DNA of 64,000 nucleotides, from NCBI RefSeq assembly GCF_021134715.1, contig NC_060027.1, positions 1,364,001-1,428,000 on the forward strand, given 5' to 3'. The notes below the pieces were generated by a model. That model was not told the DNA's origin, searched no databases, and was given only the letters and a program-made list of their open reading frames with translations. The position numbers and the translations under genes were made by a program. Positions 9,246 through 39,900 of the stretch are shown here, one piece after another; the first letter of the stretch is position 1; every line of letters starts with the position of its first letter. The stretch is from Daphnia pulex. Lineage: Eukaryota > Arthropoda > Branchiopoda > Diplostraca > Daphniidae.

Positions 9246-11192
9246 TCAATTGGGCGGGGCCTCAGTCTGCTGGGCGTCAGTAGGAATCACCTGATTATGA
9301 CCTGGAGATGGGAAAAAGAAATCGATTTTGTCTATGAGCGTTTCAACGATACGGCATTGATGCGGCATATCGGCCATCATGGTGGCCATATTGTCGTCAG
9401 CGGAACGAACGAGAGTCGGCCCAAATACGGTGGCCAGATTACGAGCGTTCATTTTATTGACGTCGCTGCTACCGGCCACGCGCGACAGGTGGCCAACCAG
9501 ATAACGCAAAGTTGAGTAATGCGGATCGGGTAAATCGTCCACCAGCCGCTTGATGCAATTCAAACGCTCCTGCTCCGGTTCCAGCTTGCTGGCCTCGATC
9601 ACGGCGCCGTAGAGTTCAGACGTCACCAGCGGATCCGGTAATTTGCGGAAAAATGATTTCATCACCGATGAGATGGCGTTGACGTCGTTCCAGCGCCAAT
9701 CCGATTCGCCGAAATCTCCGCGGTTGAAAGATTCCGTCAGGGCGTTGATGACGGCGAAATTGCCCGGCACTCGGTAGACTCCCACATTTTCCAGACCGTG
9801 GGCTTCCACAATCTCGACGCACTGTTCCACAATCCTCGGAATATTCTCGTACTTTGAAGAACGCGGGCAATTCTCCAAGGGCACGCCGATGCTGGCCCCT
9901 TTGGGCGGAGTCAAACTGAAGTGAGAAGCATCCGATTTGGGAGAGCTGGCCAGCTGGATGTCTTTGAATTCTTGGGCCGCTTGTTTGCGTCGTTCACTGT
10001 GATTCCGGTTACGTCGCCTTGTCATTGGCGAAATTCGGGCTGTGATTTCTTCGCTGTTATTCCTTGATAATGGCGAATGTTCCAGCACTTCCTCGATCGA
10101 ACCTGTCCAAGCCGAAAAAATAGAAATGAAATTAGAATAATTCGATTTTAAAATTTCGCGCGTTTTTTCGTTTCCAACCGGAAGAGCTCAGCGTTTGACG
10201 GGATATGATTTGTCGGAGCATTTGCTTCACTTCCACCAGTGGTATTCTGTGCGGCGGATCGTGCTCGATCATATTCTTGATAACAAAAGCCGCAAAGTGA
10301 TCCGAATTTAATTCTGAAATAATAAAAAAGGGTGAAAACAAAAATATCAAATTACATTGGCACAAATGAACTCACTGTCGATGTTGACTGGCTGGTTATT
10401 GCGGATGTTGTTTTGCACTGCGCTGTGGTCGTCGCCAAACGGATGGTTGAAATTTCCGCGCGTGACGTAGACGAAAAACACGCAACCGGCAGAGAAAATG
10501 TCACTTTGCGGAGTAGCTTTGGCCGGAATAATAATCTGATGGCTGTCCGGCAATAATAATTCCGGCGCCATCCACACGGCGGGTCCTTTGAATCCGCTCA
10601 CCGGAAACGTGTCCAACGCCGAAGGCATTTGCTTGCAGAGTCCGAATTCGGACAATTTGATTGTGCCCGTCGTTGAAATCAAAACGTTGGCCGGTTTGAC
10701 GTCGCCGTGGACCAGTTTGTGCGAGTGGATGTAGTCGAGTCCGTCGGCGATTTGGTACAAAACTCTTTGATCAGATGGCAGAACGGGTCCCGAATAGACT
10801 TTGCCCTTTTCACAGATTTGGTCGAGAGTTCCCGCGCATAATTCCAAAACGACGTACCTGAGATAAGGTGCGAAAACAAAAGAACAATCAATAGTCAGTT
10901 ATGGAATTGAAATTAAATTAAATTTCTATTACCTGAAATCGTCGTCCTTCTCCACCGTCCACATTTTCAAAACATTTTCGTGTTCCAGTTTCATCTGCAG
11001 TTTGACTTCACGCTCTTCCGGGTGGAGCCGATGCAATTCGATCCGCTTGACGGCCACTTGACGGTCGCGATGGCAACCGCGGTAAACGATGCCATAACTG
11101 CCCATGCCCAGGACGTCCTTTTTGTTGTAGGTCGTCCCAGTTTTCTTGCACAACGTTTTGAAATGGGTCGGTTCGGACGAGGCCTGGGCCAT
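9246..11192 (-). CDS. predicted IRE1-like kinase fused to an ARHGAP21-type RhoGAP domain
   Basis: Four exons (11192-10933, 10857-10376, 10313-10179, 10102-9246) join in phase into 577 residues. Residues of about 25-290 are a protein kinase with glycine loop LGMGSYGIVY, VAVK lysine, VHGDVKPANVLIS (Gly replaces the usual Arg), SEFGLCK in place of DFG, and VWMAPELL. The IRE1-type signatures DIFSAGCVF and HPFGDD are present, but no RNase domain follows. The last exon begins without an ATG near its start and encodes a RhoGAP domain with the arginine finger in YRVPGN, then SSVMKSFFRKLPDPL and NLATVFGPTLVR, closest to ARHGAP21/23. The donor at 10178 (CCG/GTTGGA) is weak. If it is not used, the kinase ends at a TAA near 10131 and the RhoGAP exon must start elsewhere. 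The start ATG follows an in-frame GTG. The protein is probably cytosolic and would link a kinase-like module to Rho GTPase inactivation. Confidence 0.65.
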
Positions 11193-11480
11193 CACTTCAA
11201 CTTAAAACACCTGCGCGGGTAGTAAATCACGGATAGAATGACAATTTTGGAAAGGAATTTTACTAGGCAAAAGTGCACGTCATTGTTTATCAGTTGGCTG
11301 ATACAGCCTGGAGGGTTGTAAGGCGATAACGATTGTCATCTCTGTTTATCGTTCGAGTTATGGAAGTGAAGAACAAATATGAGCAAAGAACTACGTGAAT
11401 CTTTTCTTAAACGTAAAATTTGACACAGTCACGAAGTTAAATAGAAGAATAAACTTGCGCAATTTTATAGCCCGAAGGGT

Positions 11481-13766
11481 TTAACACACGACTAGCTGGG
11501 CGGGAACGGAATCTTTGCACGCAGTCGACAACAATGAATGACTGGAATGATTGAACTCGCACATTTCTTGTTCTCTGATTTGGGCTAGAGGATCGTATTC
11601 GTGTTGGATGTTGCTCAACGAGTCAACCACATCTTCCTCGTCGTCTTCGATATTGGAAATGTCATTTCTCGATCGGAGTTTTGTCAATCGGCAGAACCAA
11701 GTGGGCAAAACGCCGTAGGATTTGACGTGGGCGTAAAGCAAATAAGTGGCGTACAAAATCAGCAAACAGGACGGAGCGACGATGCCAGGATCGAGTAATT
11801 TCACTCCGTGACCCAGTTGAATTCGCCGGTAAATCAGCAAAGCCAACGGCGAAGCGATGGCGAATCTCATGGCCATGTTGATGGATTCCTGGTGTAAATT
11901 GTGGCCGATCCGGCCGACGGGGTAAATGCGAGTCAAAGCGGATCGATCGCTGATAAACCGGAGGATCGAAAAGGTGAACGACACCAAACTGATCACCGGG
12001 AAAATGACGATAAAGAAACTCGTCAGGGCGAAATTGGTGATCAATTCGGCGTAGTTCGAAGCAAAATCGTAGTCGATTCTATAGGCGATGATGTAAGTTG
12101 ATTTCTCCTCTTCCGACCGGAAGCTGAACCATTTCTTCGTGTAAGACCAGAGGAAATCGAAGCGCAAGTGGTTCATCAAGATCCCGCCGGCCGTGTTGAC
12201 GATGATGCAACAGGCCAGGAAGCTGCCGTGAACGGGAAAGAAGACGCACGCCAGCCGGATGTCGTCGCTGTTGAACTCGCCAGCCAGCAGCAGCGGAAGT
12301 GGTTTCCTCGCCATCATCCGAATCATGTAGAGGAGAATTTCCAGGAAGCAAATGGATCGGAAACTGGCCAGACTGGCTTTGGTTAGAGATAAATGATGTC
12401 TGAGCCGGTCTTGCCCGGTGACCCAGTTGGTCAATTTGGTGGTGAATAACGACACCAGAGTGGGCAGAGCGAATCTCTTCCAAAAAATCGATCGTTCCTG
12501 TCCGTCCAAGTGAAGCCAATGGACAATGGTGGCCGGCGCGGCCATCAGGAAGATGTAAATCGAGTAAATGGCCAGGACTCTCAGCCAGACTAGAAGTGTC
12601 TTCCAAAAAGGTGGGCGCGGGTTTTTTAAATGCATCCAGTTGATGTCGGAGCCCGGAGGAGCGTATCGCACCACCCACTCTGACGGCCGGAATTGTCGGT
12701 TCTGATTGGTCTCCTCACATTTCCAAAGCCAATTCGATTGGTGTCGTCGAATGGCAAATTTTGTGGCTTTAGCCTCGACCGGACTGTCGAAACGGATAAA
12801 AACCGTTCCGGTAAATTTGAGTTGATTAATTATTTCATCTTTTTTCACGGACAGAGTTTCTTCTTTGTTGTTGTAATAAGAAACGGCCCCGATTGCTGGT
12901 TTCAACCAGGATTTTAAATCCCAAAATCGACGGCCCATCAAGACTCTGCCGTTCAAATTCTGTTTGATATTTCTGATGAAATTCAACTGATTTTGGACGG
13001 GTATTAATTTGCTGACATCTTTGGCCATCACGATTTGTTCCTGGTGGATTCCCTTGGCATCGAGGTTGCATATTAAATATTCCAGGAGGGAATCGGCCGT
13101 GGTTGTCAGCGGAATTCCAGAGATCATCAGCCAGCGTCGATTGCAGACGGTGGAGAAACTGTTGACGTCGTGGCTGGCCAGCGATCTGACACCTCGATCC
13201 TGTCCATGTTGTCTCATCAACCAAGCCAAAGTGATGAGGATGGCACTGCAGATGACACCGTGAGCCCCGTTGACGCCAATGTTGTAAAGTCCCGTGGATT
13301 GCAGAGTTTTGCTGGGCCACTCGCCCAGCTTGTCGCCGTTGTGATGCATCACAATCAAGACGATCCCGAGGACCGTCATGAGAATTTGCACTTGAATCAG
13401 CCGGAATTGGAACCATAGAAAAGTGGCGCCATCTTTCCCGACGGCCTCCTCGTCGATTTTGAGAGTCAGCCAGTCGATCCAGCTGCTGTCGGATCGTTTG
13501 AGTTGCGGCGGAGGGTCTTCCAATCCGTCCAGCCGCTCGGTGAGGAGTCGCCACTTGAATTTCTGACGAAAAAGGTAGAGAAGAGCGAAGAAGAGGATGA
13601 GAATGAGTGTCCAGTAAACGCAATTGAAGGCGATGCCACCCTCCCACACGACCCATTCGTTGAACCAACCAATGTCGATGGAAACGTCGTAAGCGTCCGT
13701 GTTTGTACAATTGGAAGTGTCTACCTCCACTTCCGGGTTAGTACAATTTTTGATTTGGTCATCCAT
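11481..13766 (-). CDS. TMEM63/OSCA (CSC1-like) mechanosensitive cation channel, single exon
   Basis: One uninterrupted frame of 761 residues starts at the ATG at 13766-13764; the GTG just upstream is not the start. The N-terminus is short and extracellular with CTN motifs. Hydrophobic helices lie near residues 43-65, 118-137 and 165-185, with a cluster of helices from about 395 to 700. Between helices 3 and 4 is a long cytosolic loop ending in VVRYAPPGSDINWMHL, the typical link before the pore half in this family. The C-terminal tail is acidic (EDDEEDVVD). Family members are osmotically or mechanically gated cation channels in plasma or organelle membranes. Length matches animal TMEM63 proteins. 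The lack of introns is unusual beside the intron-rich neighbours and suggests a retrocopy or intron loss. Which TMEM63 paralogue it matches cannot be told here. Confidence 0.85.
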   Translation of the reverse strand: MDDQIKNCTNPEVEVDTSNCTNTDAYDVSIDIGWFNEWVVWEGGIAFNCVYWTLILILFFALLYLFRQKFKWRLLTERLDGLEDPPPQLKRSDSSWIDWLTLKIDEEAVGKDGATFLWFQFRLIQVQILMTVLGIVLIVMHHNGDKLGEWPSKTLQSTGLYNIGVNGAHGVICSAILITLAWLMRQHGQDRGVRSLASHDVNSFSTVCNRRWLMISGIPLTTTADSLLEYLICNLDAKGIHQEQIVMAKDVSKLIPVQNQLNFIRNIKQNLNGRVLMGRRFWDLKSWLKPAIGAVSYYNNKEETLSVKKDEIINQLKFTGTVFIRFDSPVEAKATKFAIRRHQSNWLWKCEETNQNRQFRPSEWVVRYAPPGSDINWMHLKNPRPPFWKTLLVWLRVLAIYSIYIFLMAAPATIVHWLHLDGQERSIFWKRFALPTLVSLFTTKLTNWVTGQDRLRHHLSLTKASLASFRSICFLEILLYMIRMMARKPLPLLLAGEFNSDDIRLACVFFPVHGSFLACCIIVNTAGGILMNHLRFDFLWSYTKKWFSFRSEEEKSTYIIAYRIDYDFASNYAELITNFALTSFFIVIFPVISLVSFTFSILRFISDRSALTRIYPVGRIGHNLHQESINMAMRFAIASPLALLIYRRIQLGHGVKLLDPGIVAPSCLLILYATYLLYAHVKSYGVLPTWFCRLTKLRSRNDISNIEDDEEDVVDSLSNIQHEYDPLAQIREQEMCEFNHSSHSLLSTACKDSVPAQLVVC

Positions 13767-13877
13767 CACCTAACCCAAAGGACTCTGAATGTACGGGAAT
13801 GGATTCTTTTTTAACCAAACGCAAACCTAATTTGTGTTATCACTGATAAAACTACAAGTCTGAAATGGTATTTCGCT

Positions 13878-14319: not shown

Positions 14320-15170
14320 GAAACATTTTTCTACCTTTGGGCCCGGACAATATAGCCAGGCATCCATAAGTGCTCCAAATTCGTAGAATCCACCAGAAGG
14401 GATAGGGGAAAAGGGGATCCTCGCGAATGCACCTACACTCACATGGGTGTGCACGAGGACATTTAGTAGTTTCTCCACTCGGACGTTGGCTCAGCAGGCC
14501 CCAAATCTATGCACAAAGGAAAAAGTTACCTAGAGCAAACAAACTGCCATAAATTGAATTGACAGGGGGCTTACTGCTTACATGATAAATACCATTCAGG
14601 AACTAAAATTTCACAAATTTGAAACAGATTCAACAGTTTTAAGTTTCTCACTTGATTCCATTTGTATTGTAAGTTTTATTTACCGGCCAAAACAGCATGG
14701 AGATTGGAGAGCCGCACACCCAGAGTTAACATGATGAAATCGACGATCACATTTATAAATGTGATTTTATTTTATGTGCTATTTTTCGTGTAGCCACGTT
14801 TGTTTTAAAGAAATTCCAATTTTCTTGGTAATCTTTAACGTGGTTTCTTTGAAACAAAAAAAGTAAAGAACACAGAGCAGACGACACTAATGATTAGCCA
14901 TAAAAATAAAATATCGATTTAAAAAAAGTCAATAAAATCCTACAATAATTAAAACCGCACAAACACAAAAACAATCGGTTTTTATCTATTTCGTTTCAAT
15001 TAAAATGTATCATTAATTATATCAGAGTAATTGAATTGGATTGAAAATATTAGACATAGAACTCTGGTCTTTCCCTCCGACTCGATTGGCCAGCCCAACA
15101 AATTCATCGATTATATTCCCGTCCAGTTGAATTCGCCCAGTCAAAGTCCGTCAGAGGCTGTGATGAGTCC
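14320..15170. repeat. upstream repeat block B/C, copy 1
   Basis: The block is similar to 24555-25790 and 35395-36590. It includes an exon-like segment on the minus strand ending in a GTAGG donor (14330-14470), the segment around CAGCATGGAGATTGGAGAG (about 14690-14715), and GCAGACGACACTAATGATTAGC (about 14878). All copies lie before members of the kinase/propeller cluster, so this is probably a duplicated 5' flank. Confidence 0.7.
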
Positions 15171-15177
15171 AGCATCG

Positions 15178-15207
15178 GATAAAGACCACTGCGTTGTTAT
15201 CAGATAA
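15178..15207 (+). promoter_or_regulatory. GATA-factor site pair upstream of the kinase-propeller gene
   Basis: A GGATAA at 15178 is followed by TTATCAGATAA at 15197-15207, a palindromic GATA site. The same pair is kept at 36601-36631 before the other full copy. GATA factors drive gut, fat-body and blood-cell genes in arthropods. A role here is inference. Confidence 0.4.
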
Positions 15208-15566
15208 AGACCACATCACCTTGGTCACTATCTGTGCTGATTACGACGTGACACCGTTTGCTGGCAACTAAATGGGCTGGCAAGTCAAATCCCTAAGCGT
15301 GAGGATCAATTTGGGTCTCTTGCTGCGTACTGCGTTTCGTCTTCACATTGCCTCCAGTCGTTATTTATTCGCATTGAGCAACTGGATATTTATCAAACTT
15401 TCGGTCGATCAAAAATTGATAACGGAGCAACAGTTTAAAACAGGTGCATTTCGCAAACGAAATTCTGTGCTGACGTGTATGTGTAGGTCTTTCGTCTAAA
15501 ACGGAGGTGAGGAGGACATAACTTCGTCTATTTAGCCTCTAAATAGTCCCAGATTCCGCTGTTTGA

Positions 15567-18500
15567 ATGGAGCGCCTATTGCGTCATAACGAAGAGGAAT
15601 TTCTTTTCAAAGGGAAGAACATCCATTGCAGAAATGAGCAGCTTTTCAAAGGGTGGGGCGATTCGTTGGTGTACAGCGGATATTTCAAAAATGCGAATGA
15701 TCCAAAAAAAGAAATTGCAGTGAGGAAGATTAAGAAAACAGATTGTTGCGATAAATGGGAAGATATCGTCAACAAACATACTCGAGAGAAGGATCCCATC
15801 AAACATGAAAATGTACTCAAAATTATTAGCTACGAAGAAATGGATCAATTGAGGTTATTTGAAATTTAAAGTTTTCTTATTATAACGGAGAATATAATCA
15901 ACAGCTATTTTGTTTGTGTAGATTTTTTGCTCTGGAACGTTACGACGCTACATTGGAGCAATTTTGCAGAAGAATTTATAGAGGACCGATGCCATCTGAT
16001 GCCCAAGTTCTTTGTCAAATCGTCAAAGGACTTTTGTATCTTCACAAAGTGCACTGTTCACATGGAAATTTGACACCCGGAACAGTTCTTATCGCTTCCT
16101 CGCAGCCCGTGCGGATGATGATCAAATTATCAGAGTTTGAGTTGAGCAAATTCGGCGACCAATACGACGACAGTCAAGCGGAGTCGAACGACCAAGATGG
16201 AAACTCATTTCATAGAGCGGCAAAGAAATTTAAATACACCGAGGAACTGGGGAAGCAACTAGACCTTTGCAAAAAGAAATATTGGATATTAGATGGAACA
16301 ACCAACAGTAATGAGCAGACCCCTACACCTAATCAAGATATATTTTCAGCAGGTTGCATCTGTTTTTATTTCCTCAAACGGGGTGTACATCCCTTCGGTG
16401 ACGACTCGTCGTCAATCTTGGAAAACATTAAAAAGCGAAATCCCGTCAACTTATTAAAAAGTAATTCTTTCGTCTATAATCTTGATAAAAATAAACAGAT
16501 TTACTCTTAATGTCCATTTCTCAGCTATTATACAACAAGAAAAAGACGTATGGGAATTTGCCTACGAGCCCATAACAAAAATGATTGGAGATCCACCAAC
16601 CGACGGCACAAATTGGTTGATGATAGCCGAAGACCGTTTTATGAAGGCCCTTCCTCGTAATTTTGTTGGATAATTGATTTTTAAATTTGACCCTTATTAA
16701 TTTCCGTTGTTTTATTTGTATTGCCCAGTGAAAATTGATGAAAAAAAAGTACTCGGCAGTGGGACGTACGGAAACGTGTACGAAGGAACGTTCGACGGAA
16801 ATCCAGTTGCTGTAAAAGAATTTAAGCATTCAGATGATGCAAGAAAAAAAGAACAGAAACGGGAAATGGAGGAACACTTCCTGTTGGACCACGAAAATGT
16901 CCTTAAACTTTTGCACGTCGATGACTCACGGGATAAAACGTAACGTAGTGGAATTTAATTCATTTCTATTTGAAACATTCGTTGATTTTTCAATTTTCTT
17001 TGCAGTTGCCTTGTGCTCGAGTTATGTGCCGGGACACTGAAAGATTATTGCGAGAAGAAATACAAGGGACCGGAATTGCCGCCAGATGGCCTAGTTTTAT
17101 ATCAAATCGCCAATGGATTGCACTACATCCACTCACGAAATTTAGTTCATCGCGATGTCAAACCGGAAAACATTCTCATCTCAATGACGCCATTCGTCCA
17201 AATGAAATTGTCCGATTTCGGATTGGTAAAAAAAATAAGTCCTGAAGGAACATTTACGCAGAGTGGATTGAAAGGAACCTTAAAGTGGATGGCGCCCGAA
17301 ATTTTGAAGCTTATGGACGACACTATCACTGAACTTCCGCACGGAACAATCAAAAGCGACACATTCGCTGCCGGCTGCGTCTTTTTCAACTTCCTGACCC
17401 GCGGTAAACATCCGTTTGGAATTTCTTTTGAAATTCTGAATAACATCTCAAAAAACAATCCAACGGAGCTTATCGAACAGAAAAACAGTAAGTATTTCAT
17501 TGTATCTGTATCATGGTATTTACAAGAGCTGCTCAACATTTATCTGATCACAGATTTGCAAGGCGATGATCTTGGCCTATACGAACTGATTGAAAAAATG
17601 ATAGAGCCGAAAGAGCAAAGAATCGAATTGCCCGAGGTCATTAAACAATTGACGGCAAATTTAACTGCTCTACGTAAATAAAAATGTTTTTTTAGATAAT
17701 ATTTTAAAATTAATAATTCTTTTAAATTGTAACTTTATATTAAATAGGTAAAGATAAAAGAGTCGCGCGATTTGTGCGTGAGGGAGACGGAACTTTCGTC
17801 GCCCTTTTCCACCCAAAGAAACTATTAATCGCCTGTGGCATTAAAAATGAAATTATTTTCTTTTCTGCCGAGAATTCGTCCATTCCCTTTTCTAATTGGA
17901 AAGAGGACGAAAATACGTTTCAAATTGGACATGTAAAAGAAATTAATACGATGGAATGGAATGTAATAAGTTCATTATGAAGAGAATGAATCATTAAGTT
18001 GCCTTAAATGTTTGATTCCTCTCATCAATTATTATTTAATTGTTTGTTTAGGCGGTCGGAAACCAATTGGCTGCCATCGCTAATAATCAACGTGATATCA
18101 TCTTGTGGAATTATCCAAGTGGCGAAATTCTCTTTCAAAAGAAATTAAACAAATGGGTGAATCGAATCGAGTGGAATTCCTTCAGGCCAAACGTATTCGC
18201 TGCTTTTGGGAGCGTAAGTCGTTTCTTTTTTTCTAATTTATTAACACTGTTTCTACGTGTCAAGGACACGTCATGAGATCCCCTCTTTCTGCGACATTTT
18301 CGACCAATAATTTCAAGTCCAACCTGTTAAATTGACGCTATTAGAATCATATATTTCACCTCATAGTAAAATCATTTTTGATTGGCGCAATCTGGGAGCC
18401 TTCACGTACTACATCACGCAATTTGGCGATTTTCTCTACCCCCTCCTCCCTTGGCCATTGCTCGTCACTAAATGCTCAACCCCCACCCCCACTCATTGTT

Positions 18501-20577
18501 TTTCGGGAAGAAATGTCAGATAAATCTAAGCCCTTGTAAGAAAAAACCTATTTTTTCTCTAGAGGGAGTAGGCCAACCCCTCCCCCTATGTCAAATTTTT
18601 GTTTCCCCCTCCCCCCTCAAAGCGTGACGTATTAATGTGAACTCTTCTCATCCTCCCTTCTCTTACAATGCCAGCGCCTCTTTCCCCAATTGTAACTAAT
18701 TTTATTTTGTTTAGTTGATATCTGAAAAAGTTTTCTTCTTCAATTCCTGCCCTGTCGACCAACGGCCATTTTATTTCTACACCTTCGAAGGTGAGAAACA
18801 GATTATCAGTTTCCAGTGGATCTCTACGAATCGATTCGCTCTCGGCATAAGCGTAGACGAGGGAATTGAAATTTGGGAAATTTACGAATCGACAACTTCC
18901 GCAAAAATTGTCAAACGACTCAAACATGAAAGCGTGACGGTGAGTTTTGTTTACCCATTGACATGTCATTGCAAATACTCGTTATTATTATTTTTTTGTT
19001 TATTTCAATAAGGGTTGGATTATGGATTTGGCATGGAACGAAAGGACGAAATGTTTGGCCGCTTGTTCATCTGACGGATGGATGACGGTAAATTGTCGTT
19101 GTTCTTTTGAATGGGCGTGTCATGTTGAACTTTTGTTTTTCGTAGATTTGGTCAATGGACATCGACCAACCCATTCGCACCACCAAAGTCGATGGCCACT
19201 GTCGGAGTTTGGCTTGGCGTCCAAACAGAAAACAAACGAACGACGAGGGAGTGGACGCGGCCAGGAAATCGGCCGACAATTTCATTTTGGCTTGGTGAGT
19301 TGATCAACGGGCGGATCAACGTCTTTAAAAAATGGGACTGAACTAAGAGGATCGACTTTTTTGAGCTTTTTTTTTTACTTTTTTATGCATTATGATTTAT
19401 ATTTAGATACGAATGTTCCCGAAGCGAATTCCTTGATTCTCAAGAATATGGATAGGGATAAATACTAAGGGTATAATAGGAGGACGCGTGGAGGCTTTCT
19501 TTATTGTTTTTTTTTTTTTTTTTTCGCTTTCGCTCGCAAACATTTTTTCCCTTGGCATTGAAGGATTGGATTGTGGTTTCCCTTCCTTTTTCCCGTGGCA
19601 GGTTTATCAATCAATTGACGGGGTTTTGTGAAAAATAGGATTGAACTAATATAGAGTATTACATCATATTGATATTTCCCCCCCTCCCCAATAAAATACG
19701 AATGGAGAATGGAGGCAAGAAGCCATGCACTTTCGCGCGCAAACAAAAAATTCCGAATTTTTGTTTCATCTTTGAACAATTGGGTTCCGTGATTGCAATT
19801 CGCTGCCTTCGGGTTTATTTTGAGTTTGATTGAATTTTGGATTGCGTTGCGGATGCGAATTTGGCCTTGAGACTAGAAGGAAGGGATTGTGATTTCCCTT
19901 GTTTTCCCGCGGCAGAAATGGACGAGGAGGAAGGGGAGCAATTTCGCATTTCTGATTTTCATTTTTTTTATTTCCATTTCATTTTTATTACAGTGGATTG
20001 GTCGGGGGGATGAAGAGCCAAGGAAAGATTGTCGTTTGGACTCCGCTGGAAAACGAAAAAACGAAAATTCTCAAACAACATCCACGTTCGGTAGAGTGGC
20101 TGTCGTTTTCACCCGACGGGCGGTTTCTCGCATCAACGGATTTTGATAGGAATTTGATCATCTGGGCAACTGAGGTAAACCAGGAAACGGAACCGATTAA
20201 GAGCAGGCAGTGATACTTGATTGTAAATACAATTCAAATAAATTCAACGTGATTTCAGAATTGGCAACCCGTTTACATCGGCGAAGAATATATACGGGGC
20301 GGACATTTCTCGTGGTTATCTTCTTCGTCTACGGATGCCCCTGACTACAAATTGACATTCAACTCATCCGGTGGCAGGGTAAAAACGTTAAATTCGTTTT
20401 TAAAAGGAACATAACAACCATCCTTCTCCCCCAAGCATATTTTTATTTTTTTATCGGCCCATTTTAATCAATGCACCTTCAGTTCATTCTTATGCTATAT
20501 CCACATATTTATATTATTAGGTTCCTGTCGTAGAATACGCCGTCGGCCAGAGTGTAATTTCAAGCAAAGATGAATGA
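15567..20577 (+). CDS. pseudokinase - IRE1-like kinase - WD40 propeller fusion, copy 1
   Basis: Fourteen exons join in phase into 984 residues: 15567-15853, 15922-16460, 16525-16656, 16729-16939, 17006-17487, 17554-17673, 17748-17962, 18052-18213, 18715-18939, 19013-19087, 19146-19294, 19994-20174, 20259-20378 and 20521-20577. Residues 1-about 320 are a pseudokinase: the VAVK lysine is Arg (IAVRKIKK), the catalytic loop is HGNLTPGTVLI, and DFG is EFE. Residues of about 320-590 are a complete IRE1-type kinase with GSGTYGNVY, VAVK, VHRDVKPENILIS, SDFGLVK, WMAPEIL and HPFG. No RNase domain follows. The splice at 17673/17748 leads into a propeller of about 390 residues (HPKKLLIACGIKNEI, WSMDIDQPIR, KIVVWTPLE, SFSPDGRFLAST). 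No signal peptide or membrane helix is seen, so the protein is probably cytosolic. The domain order resembles JAK kinases only in placing a pseudokinase before a kinase. Function is unknown; sensing through the propeller is a guess. Confidence 0.8.
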
Positions 20578-23130: not shown

Positions 23131-24203
23131 ATGGCCAATGCCAACGAGGAAGAAGTGTTTATCTTCAGGGGTAAAAATTTAGGATGTAAAAAGGTGTTGC
23201 TGGCTCAAGGATCATTGGTGTATGCTGGATATTTTAAAGAAGACGACATTGTTTTTGATCGGGGCTTTGGAGGCAGATCAATAACAGTAAAAAAAGAAGC
23301 TGCAATAAGAAGAATGAGGCAAACGGATTGTCTTGACGACTGGAATATAATGGCCAAGAAATTTATGCAACTTAATACGAAATACAGAATGAAAACAGAT
23401 TTCGACCTGAAAATTGTCTCGCAAATTTTCGCTTACGAGGACGACAATGATGGTTGGAGGTAAATCAAATAATCCGGTTTGGGCGGTTTCATTCATACGG
23501 ATTGATTTTTAAAAAATGATTTAAATTTATTTCAACAGGTATTTTGCCTTTGAGCCATTCTCTACTTTGTACCACTACTGTAGTGGCCTGTACGAGGGAC
23601 CACCACTGCCCAGCGAACCGCAAGTCATTGATAAACTAATCAGCGGAATCAAGTACCTGCGTTCCTTGGATTATCCGCACGGGGATCTTAATCCGCTCAA
23701 CATAATCATCTCTCGAGACGGGCGGATAAAATTATCCGAATTTGGATTGTGCAAATTTAGCTATACCAAATCCAACCAACTCGATGATCTCTCAACTGAA
23801 TCCGGAATTCCGGAAATCTGTCGAAGGAAATATTGGATGAAATGGACGTTGGGGCAAGATAGCGAACTTGTTACCGACGATAAAAATGTTTATCCTGAAG
23901 AAAAGGAAGACATATTCGCTGTGGGATGCTTAATTGTATACTTCCTAACAATGGGCGTTCATCCATTTGGTGATGATCTTCAAGCCATTGAAGATAACTT
24001 GAAGAACAATAATCCAATCAACTTGAAAAGTAACTTTCCTGAACTTTAATTCATTGCTTCATTACTTCAAATATTTTTCTTTTTTAGAACTGAACGAGAA
24101 ACAAGCTGATTTGTATAAAGACGCCCTCGACAACATGATCCGGCAACCTCCAAACACATTGAAATGGTGGCGCGAAGCCATTGAAAAATTTAAGATGCGC
24201 TGA
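23131..24203 (+). CDS. stand-alone IRE1-like pseudokinase
   Basis: Three exons (23131-23459, 23539-24029, 24088-24203) give 311 residues. The N-terminal part aligns with the pseudokinase half of the neighbouring fusions (FIFRGKNLGCKK, SLVYAGYFKEDD, YFAFEPF). The loop reads PHGDLNPLNIII, and the usual DFG reads SEFGLCK. The VAVK lysine position is AAIRRMRQ, so Lys is replaced by Arg. The C-lobe keeps IFAVGCLIVYFL and HPFGDD. The protein ends in KFKMR after the kinase fold, with no second kinase and no propeller. It is shorter and more diverged than its neighbours, so it may be an older member that never gained the other domains or lost them. It is probably catalytically inactive and may act as a partner or scaffold. 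Confidence 0.75.
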
Positions 24204-24333: not shown

Positions 24334-25790
24334 CACTGATGGGATTCATCCCGGAAAAATAAAAAGTCACTGACTGTTCACGACTGTTACCCTCAAGTTA
24401 GCCCTCACAGCTTCTATAATATGCCTGACAGTCCACGAAACGTTTAGAGACTGGTTACAATGTTTCATGAGAAGCTTCGAGTTTTATCAAGAAAGGCGGC
24501 GACAACTTCGTACTATGTCACGATTTATCTAGGCTAAAAGAAAGAATAGAGACAAATTTGTCCTACCTTGAAGCCCGGGGAATACAGGCAGGCATATCCA
24601 TATTCCATGGATGTTCCAAATCTGCAGAATCCACCAGAAAAGATAGTTAAAAGGACGTCTTCGTGAATACATCCAGGCATTCACATGTCCACAAGTAAGG
24701 AAAGGCAAAGAACTAGACCGGCATCGGTAGTTTCTCGACTCAAACAGGATGCTGGTTTTCTAGATACAAAAATAGAAATGGGTTACGACAAATATTTAAA
24801 GAAATAAGGAAAAGTTGTAAATGAGACACTGGGTGAACCGTAATTGGTAATAACAAGAGAATTTAAGGTCTACATGTAATGCTGGTTTACATACACTGTG
24901 TTGGTGCAAGCCATGCATTATTAAACTATCTAGCAGGGCACAGGAATAAAAGAAACGAAAACCATTTGGCTACCCAACATTACCATTAGTGATGACATAG
25001 AGATTGTTGCTGATCGTTGATGATGACAGGTGATTAATGACATGTTATTGGTGCTGCACAAGCAAAACTTGAATACCTTTCTGTTATGATGGCTGGCTTG
25101 GGCCCCAAATCTATGCACAACGGAAAGGATTATAAGAATGGAAACAAACTGCCATGCATCGACAGCAACTCCATGATGAATGCTAGTAAGGTACTCAAAT
25201 TTCTCAAATCTGAAAGAGATTCAACTGTTTTAAGTTCCCACAATGATTCAATTAGTATTGTAAGTTTTTTTACCTGCCAAAACAGCATGGAGATTGGAAA
25301 GCCGCGACACCCAGTCAGTCCAGAGTTATCATGATGAAATCGACGATCACAACCTTGCGATTTTATTTGTTGTAATTATTTTTCGTGTAGCCACGTTAGT
25401 TTCCAAAAAAAGTCCTGTTTTCTTTGTAATCTTTCATTTTCTCTTATCTCTCATTCTCTTTGTCGCATGCTTTGTGGAAACAAAAGAAAAGAACCCGAAA
25501 AAGCAGACGACACTAATCGTTGGCCATAAAAATAAAGTATCGATACTTCGATAGAAAAAAAAAAGTCAATCCCACCAAAATTAAAACCTCTCAAAATTAT
25601 TCGGTTTTTATCCATTTCGTTTCAATTAAAATGTATTATTAATTATCGCATTTATAATTGAATTTAATTGAAAATATTAGACATGTAACTCTGGTGCTTT
25701 CCGTCCGACTTGATTGACCAGCCCAACAAATCCATCGACTCTATTCCCGTCCAGTTGAATTCGCCCAGTCAAAGTCCGTCAGAGGCTGTG
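24334..25790. repeat. duplicated upstream block (repeats A, B and C), copy 3
   Basis: The block starts with a shortened repeat A (24334-24510), continues with the exon-like segment (24555-24750), and goes on to the segment shared with 14320-15170 and 35395-36590. After about 25790 it diverges from the other two copies, before the place where their GATA sites lie. Confidence 0.7.
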
Positions 25791-25989
25791 ATGAGCTGGT
25801 GATGAGTCCAGCAGAGCCATCAGCCATCTATCAGCGATTTTAAATCAATTCGTCGTGTCGCTCGTCGATCACAGCCTCTGTCAGTCTGTCACGATACCTC
25901 GCCCTCCATCACGATAAAGTTCACGCGCCAGGAGCCTCAACGCCGTCGATGCAACTGGAAAAGTAAATAAAACATTTTTACAAAATCAA

Positions 25990-26668: not shown

Positions 26669-29313
26669 ATGCCGAATCCTGGTTTCGGATCCAGCCAAGA
26701 AGTTACCGAACAACCAACAACAAAATTACATACGTCATCACGTAAATGAAAATTTTCTCTTATATTATAAATCAGTCCTTTATCGGTTTTTTTTATTTTT
26801 ATATATAATGACAGGTCAGTTCAAAACAGTTGCGCGATTAGTGCGTGAGAGAGGCGAAGATGTCGTCTCCCGTTTCCACCCGAAGAAACCAGTAATCGCC
26901 TGCGGCATTAAAAATGAAATTATTTTCTTTTCTGCCGAGAATTGCTCCATTCCTTTTTCTAATTGGAAAAATAACGGAAATAAGTTTCAAATTGGACATG
27001 AAAAAGAAATTATGGCGATAGAATGGAATGTAATAAGCTCATTTTGAAGAGATTGAATTGTCATTAAGTTGCCTTAAATGTTTTATTTATTTATTTATTT
27101 TTTATTTAATTGTTTGTTCAGGTGGACGGAACCCAATTGGCTGCCATCTCTATATTCAGTAGTGAAATCATCGTGTGGAGTTATCCGGATGGCAAAGTTC
27201 TCTTTCAAAAGGAATTAGAAAAAGGGATGGATCACATCGAGTGGAATCCCTTCATGCCAAACATATTCGCTACTTTTCCCGTAAGTTGTTTCTTTTCTTT
27301 TAATTTGTTTCCTATCAGATTTACGTCATGTTACTGAAAATATTCGACCAAAAACCGCCAAGTCCAACCAGTTGACATTTTTACAACCACAACATTTTTA
27401 AATTCTATCTTCAATTTTGTTTCACATGATTTCACGTCGTTTGAGTAAAATCATTTTGGTTTGACCGCAATATGGGAGCGTTCAAGTAATACAACATCAC
27501 ACAATTTCAGAGCTTTTTTCACCCCCTCACCCTTTGGTCACAGCCGTAACGAAAAGTAGGCCTACTCCCTCCTTTTAAAACGTCACAAAATCAACCAATT
27601 GTTTTTCGAGACGAGAAATCTTTTGTAAATCTCTTTTGTAACAAAAATATCCAATTTTGCCCTACTAAAGGACGTGGCAATGGCCGAGTGACGTCATATT
27701 TAGACCAACCCCCCTCCCCTCACATCACACGGAGTTTGTTACGAAGCGAATGTATTAATGTGAACTCTTCTCATCCTCCCTTCTATTAAAATGGCCTCGT
27801 CTCATCCCCCAATTTTAACTTATTCTTCTTTTTAGGACGATTTTGGAACAAAAGTTTTCTTCTTCAATTCCTGCCCTGTCGACCAACGGCCATTTCATTT
27901 CTGCACAATTGAATATGAGAAAATTATCACGAGTTTCCAGTGGATCTCTGCGAATCGAGTTGCTCTCGGCTTACGAGGAGACAGGAGGATTGAAATTTGG
28001 GAAATTGATGAATCGATGACTTCCGCAAAAATTGTCAAACGACTCGAATATGAAAGCGTGAGTTTTGTTTATCCATTGACATGTCATTGCACATTCTAGA
28101 TAACTTTTTTTTATAATTTGATTAAGGACTATATAACAAATGTGGCATGGGACGAAAGGACAAAATGTTTGGCCGCTTGTTATGACGACGGATGGATAAC
28201 GGTAAATTGTATTTGTTCTTTTGAATGGGCGTGTCATCTTGAACTTGTCGTTTTCCTATTAGATTTGGTCAATGGACAGCGACCAACCCATTCACACCAC
28301 AAAGGTCGATGGCGAATGTAGGAGTTTGGCTTGGCGTCCAAACAGAAAACAAACGGACGACGAGGGAGTGGACGCGGCCAGGAAATCAACCGACAATTTC
28401 ATTTTGGCTTGGTGAGTTGATCAACGGACGGGAATTGTGAAAAATGGGATTGAACTTATAAAAGGACTGCATTCACATATGCAAATTCAAATGTTTCTCT
28501 TTTTCACGTAAGCAAAATGAACAAAGCGGTAGAGCGTGGGGACAAGAAGCCATACACTTTCGCACGCAAACTTTCGCGCGCAAATATTTTTTTGAATATT
28601 TTCCTATTTTAAAGTTAAACAATTGAGTTGAAGGAAGGGATAGTACCTAGTTTTCTTTTTCTCGCGGAAAAAAAATGGACAAGGGAGGAAGTCAGGAAGG
28701 GCAGAGCATTTTCGCATTTTTGATTTTGATTTTCATTACAGTGGATTTGGCCAAAGGAAGATTGTCATTTGGACTCCACTGAAAAAGAAAAAGACAAGAT
28801 TTCTCATCAAACAACATTCAAGTGTTATAGATTGGCTGTCGTTTTCACCCGACGGGCGGTTTCTCGCATCATCGGATGTGAATGGGAAATTGATCAGCTC
28901 AATTTCCTTCAGGTCAGCTGAGGTAAACAAGAAAACGGAACGGATAAAGACGGAGTGGTTATAAAACAATATTGAATATATTCAACGTTTTTTTCAGGAT
29001 TGGAAACCCGTTTTCATTAAAAAAAAACATATAAGGGGTGGACGTTTCTCCAAGCATTTCTCGTGGTCGTCTTCTTCGTCTACGGATGTCCCGGACTACA
29101 AATTGACATTCAACTCGAACGATGGCAAGGTATCAACGGGGGATATTCGTTTTTATAAAGGCACATTATAAAAATCATGGCCACGAGCATATTTCTCTTT
29201 TTTCAAATAACGCCTTATTTATTAGTTAATGCACCTTCAGTTCATTCTTAAGTTATAACCAAATATTTATATATTATTAGATTCGTGTCGTGGAATACGC
29301 TGAAGGCCAGTAA
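26669..29313 (+). CDS. propeller-only paralogue of the kinase-propeller genes
   Basis: The gene keeps the propeller exons of the kinase fusions but no kinase exon. A short first exon (26669-26741, MPNPGFGSSQEVTEQ) splices at the same C/GT position as the kinase-propeller junction of the other copies, into 26815-27029, 27122-27280 and the later exons. It ends VVEYAEGQ at 29311-29313. WD-like strands are IIVWSYPDGK, IEIWEIDES, IWSMDSDQPIH and KIVIWTPLK. The propeller is intact over about 400 residues. One exon lacks the six bases coding Val-Thr before the donor near 28058, and the strand after the SFSPDGRFLASS motif has extra residues in place of IIWATE. No ATG lies in frame upstream of 26669 after the TGA at about 26521. 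The protein could compete for partners of the full-length copies; that is inference. Confidence 0.7.
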
Positions 29314-35308: not shown

Positions 35309-36590
35309 ATCAAGAAGCTTCGAGTTTTATGAAGAAAGGCGGCGACAACTTCGTACTATGTCACGATTTTTCTAGGCTTAAGAAAGAATAGAGACAAATT
35401 TGTCCTACCTTGAAGCCTGGGGAATACAGGCAGGCACCCCACATTCCATAGAAGTTCCAAATCCACAGAATCCACCAGAAAAGATAGTTAAAAGGACGTC
35501 CTGGTGAATACATCCATGCATTCACATGTACACGAGTAGAGAAAGGGGAAGAACTCGACCGACATCGGTTGTTTCTCCACTCAAACGGGATGCTGGTTAT
35601 CTAGATTAAAAAATTAGAAATGGGTTACGACAAATATTTACAGAAATAAGGAAAAGTTGAAAATGAGACACTATTGGTAAACCATAATGTTAATAAAAAA
35701 GAGAATTGAAGGTTTACAGGTAATGATGGTTTACATACAGTGTGTTGATGCTCGTCAGGCATCATTAAAATATCTAGCAGAGTACAGGAATAAAAGTAAC
35801 GAAAACCATTACCCAACATTACCATTAGCGATGACACAGAGATTGTTGCTGATGGCAGGTGATTGAAGACATGTGATTGGTGATGCACAAGCAAAACTTG
35901 CACATCTTTTCTTTGTGATGGTAGGCTCCGGCCCCAAATCTGTGACAACAGAAAAGGTTATAACAGTGGAAACAAACTGCTAAGCATGGACAGGGGGCTT
36001 CATAATGAATGGTACTCAGGTACTAATATTTCTCAAATCTGAGACAGATTCAACTGTTTTGAGTTCCCATAATGACTCAATTTGTACTGTAAATTTCATT
36101 TACCTGCCAAAACAGCATGGAGATTGGAGAGTCGCGAACTCCAGAGTTAACATGATGAAAACGACGATCACATTTTTGTGATGTTCTTAATCTTTCGTGT
36201 AAATTTGTTTCCAAAAAATTCCATTTTCTTTGTGATCTTAAACGTGGTTTCTTTGTCTCATGCTTTGTCGAGAGAAAAAAAAAGAGTACAGAACAGGAAA
36301 AAGCAGACGACACTAATCGTTAGCCATAAAAATAAAATATCGATTTAAAAAAAGTCAATATCCCACAATAATTAAAAACCGCTCAAACAATAAAACAATC
36401 GGTTTTTATCTATTTTGTTTCAACTAAAATGTATCATTAATTATATTAGAGTAATTGGATTGAATTGAAAATATTAGACATGGAACTCTGGTCTTTCCGT
36501 CCGACTCGATTGGCCAGCCCAACAAATCCATCGACTTTATTCCCGTCCGGTTAAATTCGCCCAGTCAAAGTCCGTCAGAGGATGTGATGA
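35309..36590. repeat. duplicated upstream block (repeats A, B and C), copy 4
   Basis: The block begins with a remnant of repeat A (AGCTTCGAGTTTTATGAAGAAAG). It then follows 24480-25790 closely, and its right part follows 14560-15170. It ends directly before the GATA sites of the second full kinase-propeller gene. Confidence 0.7.
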
Positions 36591-36600
36591 GTGCAGCATC

Positions 36601-36631
36601 GGATAAAGACCACTGCGTTATTATCAGATAA
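36601..36631 (+). promoter_or_regulatory. GATA-factor site pair upstream of the second kinase-propeller gene
   Basis: GGATAA at 36601 and TTATCAGATAA at 36621-36631 repeat the pair before the first copy with the same spacing. Flanking sequence is also nearly identical, so conservation may simply reflect recent duplication. Confidence 0.4.
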
Positions 36632-36990
36632 AGACCACATCACCTTGGTCACTATCTGTGCTGATTACAACGTTACACCGTTTGCTGGCAACTAAATGGG
36701 CTGGCGAGTCAAATCCCTATAAGCGTGAGGATCAATTTGGGTCTCTTGCTGCGTACTGCGTTTCGTCTTCACATTGCCTCCAGTCGTTATTTTTCCGCAT
36801 TGAGCAACTGGATATTTATCAAACTTTCGGTCGATCAAAAATTGATAACGGACCAACAGTTTTAAACAGTTGCATTTCGCAAACGAAATTCTGTGCTTCT
36901 TCGTACGTCTTCGTCTAAACCAGAGGTAGGCCGAGAAGGACATAACTTCGTCTATTTAGCCTCTAAATAGTCCCAGATTCCGCTGTTTGA

Positions 36991-39900
36991 ATGGAGCGCC
37001 TATTGCGTCATAACGAAGAGGATCTTCTCTTCACAGGAAAGAACATCCATTGCAGAAAAAAGCCACTTTTCAAAGGGTTGGGCGATTCGTTGGTGTACAG
37101 CGGGTATTTCAAAAAGGCGAAGAATTCAAAAGAAGAAATTGTAGTGAGGAAGATTAAGAAAACAGATTGCGACGAAGAATGGTATGATATCTTTAACAAA
37201 CATATTCAAGAGAAGGATCCCATCAAACATGAAAATGTCCTCAAAATTATTAGCTACGAAGAAATGGATCAATGGAGGTTATTTGAAATTTAAGGTTTTC
37301 TTATTTGACGGAGAATATAATCAACAGCTAAATTTGTTTGTGCAGATATTTTGCTCTGGAACGTTACGACGCTACACTGGGGCAGTTTTGCAAAGGAATT
37401 TATAAGGGACCGATGCCATCTGACGCCCAAGTTCTTTGCCAAATCACCAAAGGGCTTTTGTTTCTGCACAAAGAGCAATGCACACATGGAAATTTGACGC
37501 CCCGAACAATTCTAATCGCTTCCTCACAGCCGGTGCGGATGATGATCAAATTATCAGAGTTTGGGTTGAGCAAATTCGTCGGCCAATGCGACGACAGTCA
37601 AGCGGAGTCGAACGACCAAGATGGAAACTCATTTCATAGAGCGGCAATGAAATTTAAATACACCGAGGAACTGGGGAAGCAACTAGACCTTTGCAAAAAG
37701 AAATATTGGATATTAGATGGAACAACCACCGAAAGTAACCAGCAGACCCCTACACCTAATCAAGATACATTTGCAGCAGGCTGCCTCTGTTTTTATTTCC
37801 TCAAACGGGGTGCGCATCCCTTCGGTGACGACTCGTCGTCAATCTTGGAAAACATTCAAAAACGAAATCCTGTCAACTTAAAAAGTAATTCTTTTGTCTA
37901 ATCTTAATAAAAATAAATAGATTTACTGTTTATGTCCATTTCTCAGCTCTACAACAAGAAAAAGGCGTATGGGAATTTGCCTACGAGCCCATAGAAAACA
38001 TGATTGGAGATCCACCGACCGACGGCAAAAATTGGTTGATGATAGCCAAAGATCATTTTAAAAAGGCCCTTCCTCGTAAGTTTGTTGCAGAATGAATTTT
38101 TGAATTTGAACCTATAATTAAACGTGTTATTGTGAATAATTTGCAGTGAGATTTGAAGAAAAAAAGGAGAACGAACTCGGCAGGGGAGGGTTTGGAATCG
38201 TGTACAAAGGAACATACGAAGGAAATGCAGTTGCAGTTAAAGTTACAGTTAAGGTACATTTAGATGATGCAAGAAAAAAAGACCAGAAACGGGAAATGGA
38301 GGAACACTTCCTGTTAGACCACGAAAATGTCCTGAAACTTTTGCACGTCGATGACTCACGGGATAAAACGTATCTAAATGGAATTCAAAATTATTATTTG
38401 ACACATTCATTGATTTTTCAATTTCATATGCAGATGCCTTGTGCTCGAATTATGTGCCGGGACACTGACAGACTATTGCGAGAAGAAATACAAGGGACCG
38501 GAATTGCCACCAGATGGCCTAGTTTTATATCAAATCGCCAATGGATTGCACTACATCCACTCACGAAATTTAGTTCATCGCGACGTCAAACCGGACAACA
38601 TTCTCATCTCAATCACGACACCCGTCCAAATGAAATTGTCCGATTTCGGATATGTCAAAAAAACAAGTCATCGAGGGACATTTACTCAGAGTGGATTGAA
38701 AGGAACTGAAAAGTGGATGGCGCCTGAAATTTTGGAGCTTGTGATTAAAATGGAAGAGTCAAGTGATAGCACGTCTGAGGAACTTCCGCACGGAACAATC
38801 CAAAGCGACACATTCGCTGCCGGCTGCGTCTTTTTCTACTTCCTGACTCGCGGTAAACATCCGTTTGGCAATTCTTATAAAATTCCAGGGAACATCGTAG
38901 ATAACAATCCAATTGAGCTGAATCAACACAAACAAAGTAACAAGCATTTCACTTGTATTTTCATCACGATGGTATGTACAAAAGCTGCTCAACATTTTCT
39001 GATCACAGATTTGCAAGGCGATGATCGTGCCCTATACAAACTGATTGGAAAAATGATAGAGCCGAAAGATGAAAGAATCGAATTGCCCGATGTTATCATA
39101 CAAATGACGAATTTAACTGCCACACGTAAAATCAAACATTTTCTCTGATATTTTAAATCAGTCTTCTATTTTGTAACTTTGTATATAATAACAGGTAAAT
39201 TCAAAAGAGTTGCGCGATTAGTGCGTGAGAGAGGCAGAAAGTGCGTCTCCCGTTTTCACCCGAAGAAACCAGTTCTCGCCTGCGGCATTAAAAATGAAAT
39301 TATTTTCTTTTCTGCCGAGAATTGGTCCATTCCTTTTTCTAATTGGAAACGGGACGAAAATAAGTTTCAAATTGGACATGAAAAAGGAATTACGAGGATG
39401 GAATGGAATGTAATAAGCTCATTTATATGAAGAGATTGAATCATTAAGTTGCATTAAATGTTTGATTTCCCTCTTAATTTGTATTTAATTGTTTGTTTAG
39501 GCGGACGGAAGTCAATTGGCTATCATCTTTCGTGAACATGTCATCGTGTGGAGTTATCCAAGTGGCGCAATTCTCTATCAAAAGGAATTAGAAAAAGGGA
39601 TGGATCACATCGAGTGGAATCCCTTCATGCCAAACATATTCGTTACTTTTCCCGTAAGTTGTTTCTTTTCTTTTAATTTGTTTCCATCACGTGTCAGATA
39701 TACCTATGTACGTCATGTGATCTCCCCCTTTTTTCTGCGAAATATTATTCGACCAAAAACCGCCAAGTCCAACCCTTTAAAATGTTTAGAACCACAACAT
39801 TTTGTAATTCTACCTTCAAGCTAAATGTAGTTTCCGGGTAGTTTCACCTGATTTCACGTCGTTTTAGTAAAATCATTTTGGTTTGACCGCAATCTGATGG

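Follow-up and report, generated by a model that had tools for sequence, protein, structure and literature searches.

The question raised by the stretch of Daphnia pulex DNA analysed here (64,000 nucleotides of contig NC_060027.1; hereafter the window) is whether the gene at 15567–20577, which we call K1, fuses into one protein, in this order, an IRE1-like pseudokinase, a kinase whose catalytic motifs are complete and a WD40 propeller at the C-terminus, and what such a protein might do. Spliced together, the 14 exons of K1 give 2955 nt including the stop codon and encode 984 aa. All 13 introns have GT-AG borders; 11 of them measure 58–142 nt and the remaining two 501 and 699 nt, and their phases are 2,1,1,2,1,1,0,0,0,0,2,0,0. 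In a Pfam scan (E up to 1; best 25 of 28 families) the protein was matched by the protein kinase family in two stretches and by WD40 several times. K1 itself was absent among the database proteins of 541–1722 aa found by our search. RefSeq holds computed models for two paralogs: in spliced alignments, P0001 matched the second full copy of the window (copy C) at 978 of 978 residues over 14 exons, and P0003 (LOC124207753 isoform X2, 1008 aa) matched a locus near 1.68 Mb of contig C11 at 1008 of 1008 residues, again over 14 exons with the phases of K1. This agreement of exons and phases with two RefSeq proteins is far beyond chance. A first-pass annotation of the window had proposed 14 phase-consistent exons and the same C/GT splice from kinase into propeller in both full copies; the former is borne out by the intron borders, the 984-aa frame and the two RefSeq paralogs, and the latter is present, as C|GT in phase 1, in K1 and in copy C. 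As read from genomic DNA, the three-part fusion of K1 is shown about as well as a genome sequence allows.

The two kinase domains differ in their catalytic motifs. The first has IAVR in place of VAVK, HGN in place of HRD and EFE in place of DFG, and the second keeps VAVK, HRD and DFG, as had been noted at first pass. Against the Protein Data Bank (PDB), IRE1 was the best match of the second kinase, at 124 bits, which agrees with the IRE1-like label it had been given; an entry labelled EGFR (9p9u) reached 121.6 bits over two stretches, and the rest of the non-IRE1 matches were at or below 78.7 bits. IRE1 was also the best match of the pseudokinase (60.6 versus 28.9 bits). Among eight pseudokinases compared, the β3 lysine is gone in all (Arg in seven, Thr in one), the Asp of HRD is gone in seven, with D. 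magna retaining it, and the Asp of DFG is Glu (EFG or EFE) in four. Thus, the loss common to all compared pseudokinases is that of the β3 lysine, and the other losses vary. The pseudokinase-only gene of the window, which lies outside this set, carries AAIR, HGD and EFG. All ten second kinases retain VAVK and HRD, and nine retain DFG; that of D. magna reads DLS, with the Asp retained. The 2-5A/KEN RNase domain (PF06479) was not among the best 25 of the 28 Pfam families of K1, and no hydrophobic helix was found in the K1 protein (maximum Kyte–Doolittle, KD-19, mean 1.29), in line with the earlier remark that RNase and membrane helix are missing. The pseudokinase starts within the first 30 residues, and neither the membrane helix nor the luminal domain of IRE1 was found ahead of it. 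In the D. pulex genome, PF06479 gave three matches: two exons on C1 and, apart from this stronger match, a weak single piece on the minus strand of C4 (C4:1982994–1983125).

The three-domain order recurs beyond the window. A further copy on C10 (copy G) keeps it, with phase-1 introns at both junctions, its ends and some of its propeller introns being provisional. The first-pass annotation had suggested looking for the order in other cladocerans, and it was found in proteins of D. magna (P0005, 42% identity to K1) and D. sinensis (P0126, 44%), each over about 1000 columns. In five D. pulex copies (K1, C, E, G and D) both junction introns are 65–88 nt long, GT-AG and in phase 1, the exon ahead of the first junction in copy D being a 10-nt alignment only. 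Proteins of the family are present in RefSeq and GenBank, mostly labelled uncharacterized or hypothetical. Outside Daphnia, a search that reaches only sequences sharing short words returned WD40 and kinase-WD40 proteins, many of them prokaryotic, with about 20–40% identity over part of the propeller. In the literature on Daphnia kinases, WD40 proteins, family expansions, Pasteuria resistance and tandem kinases, no title or abstract opening concerned the K1 family in a search that left most subscription papers outside. An excerpt of one further source cites Daphnia for expanded Swt1-type HEPN genes and not for K1-family kinases (PMC3710099).

Within the D. pulex genome, exon matches numbered at least 91 for the propeller (mostly on C11, then C10), at least 164 for the kinase and at least 133 for the pseudokinase (chiefly on C11 and C3); the numbers refer to pieces, some of them shared, and not to genes. 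Ten propeller loci were modelled: four with the full order (K1, C, E, G), two kinase-propeller (D, F), two pseudokinase-propeller (HI_b and the clearer HI_c), one solo propeller (B) and one degenerate copy (K). Upstream of D (4.3 kb) and F (3.1 kb) there was no pseudokinase match at E 0.01. Left out of the modelled set were HI_a, whose match became unreliable beyond the pseudokinase, locus J at C11:1.711 Mb, L050, L051 and the propeller matches lying on C5, C6 and C9 or at other places on C10 and C11. In the window, blastn aligned the DNA directly upstream of K1 (14497–15566) with that directly upstream of copy C (35930–36990) at 85% identity over 1102 columns, and its part 14497–15167 with part of the region upstream of copy B (25101–25795) at 76% over 722 columns. 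K1, C and B therefore appear to be tandem duplicates that carried their upstream regions with them. Because the kinase module is bordered by phase-1 introns on both sides, it can leave or enter a gene without a change of frame, and such symmetric borders would fit the existence of kinase-propeller, pseudokinase-propeller and propeller-only relatives. Copy B most plausibly descends from a fused gene that lost its other parts, since its first exon can be aligned with the last exon of the kinase and the same junction intron is kept; on these grounds we rejected the opposite order of events, in which copy B would stand for an ancestor into which kinases were inserted.

The blade count and fold of the K1 propeller were taken from a structure model of copy C. 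In this model the propeller has eight blades and a predicted fold closest to TBL1XR1, with other 8-bladed propellers within 1 Z of that match; LRRK2 was the second Foldseek match, and by sequence Notchless came close behind TBL1XR1 (49.3 versus 46.7 bits). The propeller had at first been likened to the luminal domain of IRE1, a comparison that is not supported in that form, the domain being a WD40 propeller, predicted to be 8-bladed, that resembles TBL1XR1.

We compared the rates at which the three parts change, as ratios of nonsynonymous to synonymous divergence (dN/dS). Pairwise values were 0.33–0.52 for the pseudokinase (K1, C, E), 0.46–0.68 for the kinase (K1, C, E, D) and 0.70–1.01 for the propeller (K1, C, E, D, B), or 0.70–1.03 for a slightly longer stretch of propeller without B. 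Relative to the distant copy G, values were lower, at 0.15–0.16 for the pseudokinase (two usable pairs of three), 0.32–0.37 for the kinase and 0.50–0.56 for the propeller, which suggests that all three parts have been constrained in the long term, the propeller being the freest. With strands assigned from the structure model, the loops of the propeller were divided between its top face (d-a and b-c loops, 75 sites) and its bottom face (100 sites). The top-face loops gave a dN of 0.47 and a dN/dS of 1.29, the bottom loops a dN of 0.09 and a dN/dS of 0.47, and the strands a dN/dS of 0.69; the bootstrap share at or below a zero top-bottom difference was 0.001 for dN/dS and 0.000 for dN. Hypervariable sites, defined by at least four residues among six sequences, numbered 53 of 376; 27 of them lie in top loops (10.6 expected) and 2 in bottom loops (14.1 expected), the b-c turns being likewise hypervariable.

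When sites were registered on the hydrophobic residue of strand a (site 0) and the counts from all eight blades and ten pairs were combined, the codon ahead of it (site –1) had proportions of nonsynonymous (pN) and synonymous (pS) differences of 0.58 and 0.16, i.e., a pN/pS of 3.58 (blade bootstrap 2.35–11.32), compared with 0.39 at site 0 and 0.10 at site +5, which is mostly Trp. Sites –1 and +1 jointly gave 2.24 (bootstrap 1.54–4.09; leave-one-out 1.86–2.64). Four D. pulicaria proteins, which lay outside the setting of the register, differed at 0.89 at site –1, 0.13 at site 0, 0.66 at site +1 and 0.00 at site +5, with 0.68 differences per site in top loops and 0.17 in bottom loops. What is new here is that paralogous propellers diverge on one face. 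That this is a recognition face is well supported by the counting tests, and of the earlier suggestion that the propeller may sense or dock a partner, it is the sensing that this one-sided diversification supports, binding itself being presumed.

On this evidence we hold with moderate confidence that the K1 family would consist of locally expanded, soluble intracellular recognition receptors that signal through a kinase and carry a pseudokinase in the same chain, so far found only in Daphnia. As to ligand, direction of control and immune role, we infer that the top face of the propeller would bind a partner that varies, the likeliest being a molecule from a parasite or else a guarded host protein; that such binding would alter the cis contact between pseudokinase and kinase, as happens in JAK and GCN2; and that the active second kinase would then phosphorylate a downstream target. 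A more specific version can be offered only tentatively: these would be multigene immune or non-self receptors of Daphnia, in which 8-bladed WD40 recognition is coupled to an IRE1-descended pseudokinase-kinase output, an animal counterpart of the plant tandem kinase resistance proteins with variable loops like those of HET-D/HET-E. Daphnia is a model of host-parasite coevolution, for which the family provides a concrete candidate for specific recognition; if the proposal is true, animals, fungi and plants would have arrived at like solutions (variable propeller, tandem kinase). The family also offers test cases for how a pseudokinase fused ahead of an IRE1-type kinase might control it, and for the loss and gain of domains through symmetric phase-1 introns.

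Several observations weigh against this interpretation. The first concern the product. The D. pulicaria protein P0125 (602 aa) comprises pseudokinase and kinase only and ends in ...YASRK. If the junction intron of K1 is retained (C|GTAAATAA), it is read as Arg, Lys and an in-frame stop, and P0125 therefore has the appearance of a product in which the first part of the intron is retained. None of the D. pulicaria proteins among the database matches is full-length: P0002 has kinase and propeller, and P0004 starts at the end of the pseudokinase. Going by P0125, a kinase-only product may exist, and both a long and a short form may be made. In its kinase part the structure model is poor (mean predicted local distance difference test, pLDDT, 58; predicted template modelling score, pTM, 0.45), too poor for the pseudokinase-kinase contact to be judged from it, and the idea that the pseudokinase controls the kinase is argued from analogy. 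The remaining points concern the propeller. The dN/dS of the propeller exceeded that of the kinase at a bootstrap share below 0.05 in only two of six pairs (K1-C, 0.046; C-D, 0.004). The dS of the top loops is raised too (0.36 versus 0.20 in the bottom loops), so that alignment error there is possible, and the initial blade register, in which blades 2 and 3 were one strand off, gave only 0.97 for the top and 0.71 for the bottom before both blades were corrected from their strand sequences. Site +1 is not significant alone (pN/pS 1.56, blade bootstrap 0.87–3.47). The tests are counts over pairs that are non-independent (five sequences), with conversion between copies possible, and D. pulicaria, as a close relative, does not provide a wholly independent repeat. 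Diverged D. pulex copies (G, F, HI_b, HI_c) show a weaker contrast, 0.74 in the top versus 0.60 in the bottom loops (bootstrap share 0.002), and comparisons between species gave 0.81 versus 0.53. Since the bottom loops do change in diverged copies, the fold does not hold them fixed, and it is among recent paralogs that the contrast is strong.

The alternative that survives best, unlikely in our judgement, is that K1 encodes a regulatory kinase of the usual kind, its propeller docking one fixed partner, as TBL1XR1 docks a co-repressor or histone complex, and that the variation reflects constraint relaxed after duplication. Relaxed constraint would not predict so low a dN in bottom loops beside that of top loops, nor a pN/pS of 3.6 at a repeated site that adjoins a constrained one, nor the recurrence of the face pattern in D. 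pulicaria. We regard as improbable a stress sensor of the IRE1 or GCN2 type, in which the kinase pair would dimerise and respond to cell stress with the propeller as a scaffold: both kinase domains match IRE1 best and the pseudokinase-kinase order is that of GCN2, but RNase, membrane helix and luminal part were not found in K1, and neither family expansion nor face-specific diversification is expected of a stress sensor. The least credible reading, that pseudokinase, kinase and TBL1-like propeller are adjacent genes arranged head to tail with gaps of about 70 nt, transcribed apart or mostly ending at the junction, could draw on the stop met within a few codons when intron 3 or intron 6 is read through, on the annotated extent of P0125 and on copy B as a propeller gene alone, but it runs against the short phase-1 introns at both junctions in five copies, the two RefSeq D. 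pulex models spliced across both junctions, the joined proteins of D. magna and D. sinensis, and copy B itself, whose junction intron and first exon look like remnants of a fusion.

Table 1. Positions in the window of the parts of K1 and of its relatives.
Feature	Position	Strand	Remarks
Region upstream of K1	14497-15566	+	Duplicated along with the gene; blastn
K1 pseudokinase, exons 1-3	15567-15853, 15922-16460, 16525-16656	+	β3 Lys to Arg, HGN, EFE
K1 intron, pseudokinase to kinase	16657-16728	+	72 nt, phase 1
K1 IRE1-like kinase, exons 4-6	16729-16939, 17006-17487, 17554-17673	+	VAVK, HRD, DFG
K1 intron, kinase to propeller	17674-17747	+	74 nt, phase 1, C|GT
K1 propeller, exons 7-14	17748-17962, 18052-18213, 18715-18939, 19013-19087, 19146-19294, 19994-20174, 20259-20378, 20521-20577	+	WD40, predicted 8-bladed and TBL1XR1-like
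Pseudokinase-only gene of the K1 family	23131-24203	+	AAIR, HGD, EFG; stop without second kinase; open frames and tblastn, exon joins by eye
Copy B, first exon	26669-26741	+	End SSQEVTEQPTTKLHTSSR alignable to the last exon of the kinase (LPEVIIQLTAKLYASR in copy D); C|GT phase-1 intron next
Copy B, solo propeller	26815-29313	+	RefSeq 'TBL1XR1' (P0121, 412 aa)
Copy C, second full copy	36991-41676	+	14 exons, phases as K1; RefSeq LOC124207482 isoform X1 (P0001, 978 aa)

Other members and neighbours of the family were seen in passing. Copy K (C11:5176501–5180500, L044) is a decaying kinase-propeller copy whose alignment contains five in-frame stops and which was therefore kept out of the rate tests. 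HI_a (C11:1643901–1649500, L049, minus strand) has a pseudokinase followed by sequence that by eye resembles a coiled coil and not a propeller. A dense cluster of IRE1-like kinase exons occupies C3:0.15–1.6 Mb, with no C3 propeller match among the matches listed. The D. pulex RefSeq IRE1-like protein P0127 is a different tandem kinase, an IRE1-like kinase followed, by eye, by a second, unlike kinase. In the window, 9249–11201 (minus strand) encodes an IRE1-like kinase with HGD for HRD and EFG for DFG; its last exon can splice, by eye (phase 1, G|GT), to a RhoGAP exon (173.7 bits), and it is perhaps another fusion of the same kinase family with a different partner. An uninterrupted 762-aa frame at 11484–13769 (minus strand), perhaps a retrocopy, has a PHM7_cyt domain (50.3 bits) and is presumably TMEM63/CSC1-like.

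Among known systems, IRE1 is the nearest by kinase sequence, from which K1 differs in its two kinase domains and C-terminal propeller as well as in the parts of IRE1 not found in it. A pseudokinase stands directly ahead of an active kinase in GCN2 and JAK, and K1 shares this order, its kinase matching IRE1 best; RWD, HisRS, FERM and SH2 domains were not among the best 25 Pfam families of K1. Membership of K1 in the GCN2 or JAK families was rejected, order alone being shared. In LRRK2 a single chain carries a kinase and, C-terminal to it, a WD40 propeller, and bacterial PkwA too has a kinase and then WD40. K1 shares the kinase-then-WD40 order with LRRK2 and other ROCO proteins and differs in its IRE1-like kinase and the pseudokinase in front; ROC-COR and LRR were not among its best 25 Pfam families. 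The first-pass annotation knew of no described family with the order of K1; the kinase-WD40 part of that order is known from LRRK2, and the family as such is already in RefSeq and GenBank. With the WD40 co-repressor subunits TBL1XR1, TBL1 and Sif2, the family would share the 8-bladed fold, going by the copy C model, and it differs from them in the kinases in front and in its fast-changing top face. TBL1XR1 and TBL1 carry an N-terminal LisH and F-box-like part, which was not among the best 25 Pfam families of K1, nor among the 25 of the propeller-only P0121; the latter has a short first exon in its place.

Two further systems resemble the K1 family in layout or in pattern of change. The plant resistance protein Lr9 (WTK6-vWA) is reported to have two tandem kinases, the second perhaps inactive, and a C-terminal vWA domain, a fusion its authors call unusual, and resistance is shown (PMC10260399). 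K1 is like such tandem kinase proteins in having paired kinases, one perhaps a pseudokinase, and an extra C-terminal domain. It differs in that the suspected pseudokinase is second in Lr9 and first in K1, and in having a propeller instead of a vWA domain; no homology is claimed, and for K1 recognition would be presumed only. For HET-D and HET-E of Podospora, the published account describes four positively selected codons per repeat, paired around a constrained codon, in the d-a loop and b-c turn on the top of the propeller (PMC1805685). The K1 family appears to share this diversification of the top face, the pair of sites around a constrained d-a residue and the variable b-c turns, whereas HET-D and HET-E, on the same account, are NACHT receptors whose near-identical repeats are exchanged between genes (PMC1805685) and the K1 family has eight unlike blades and a putative kinase output.

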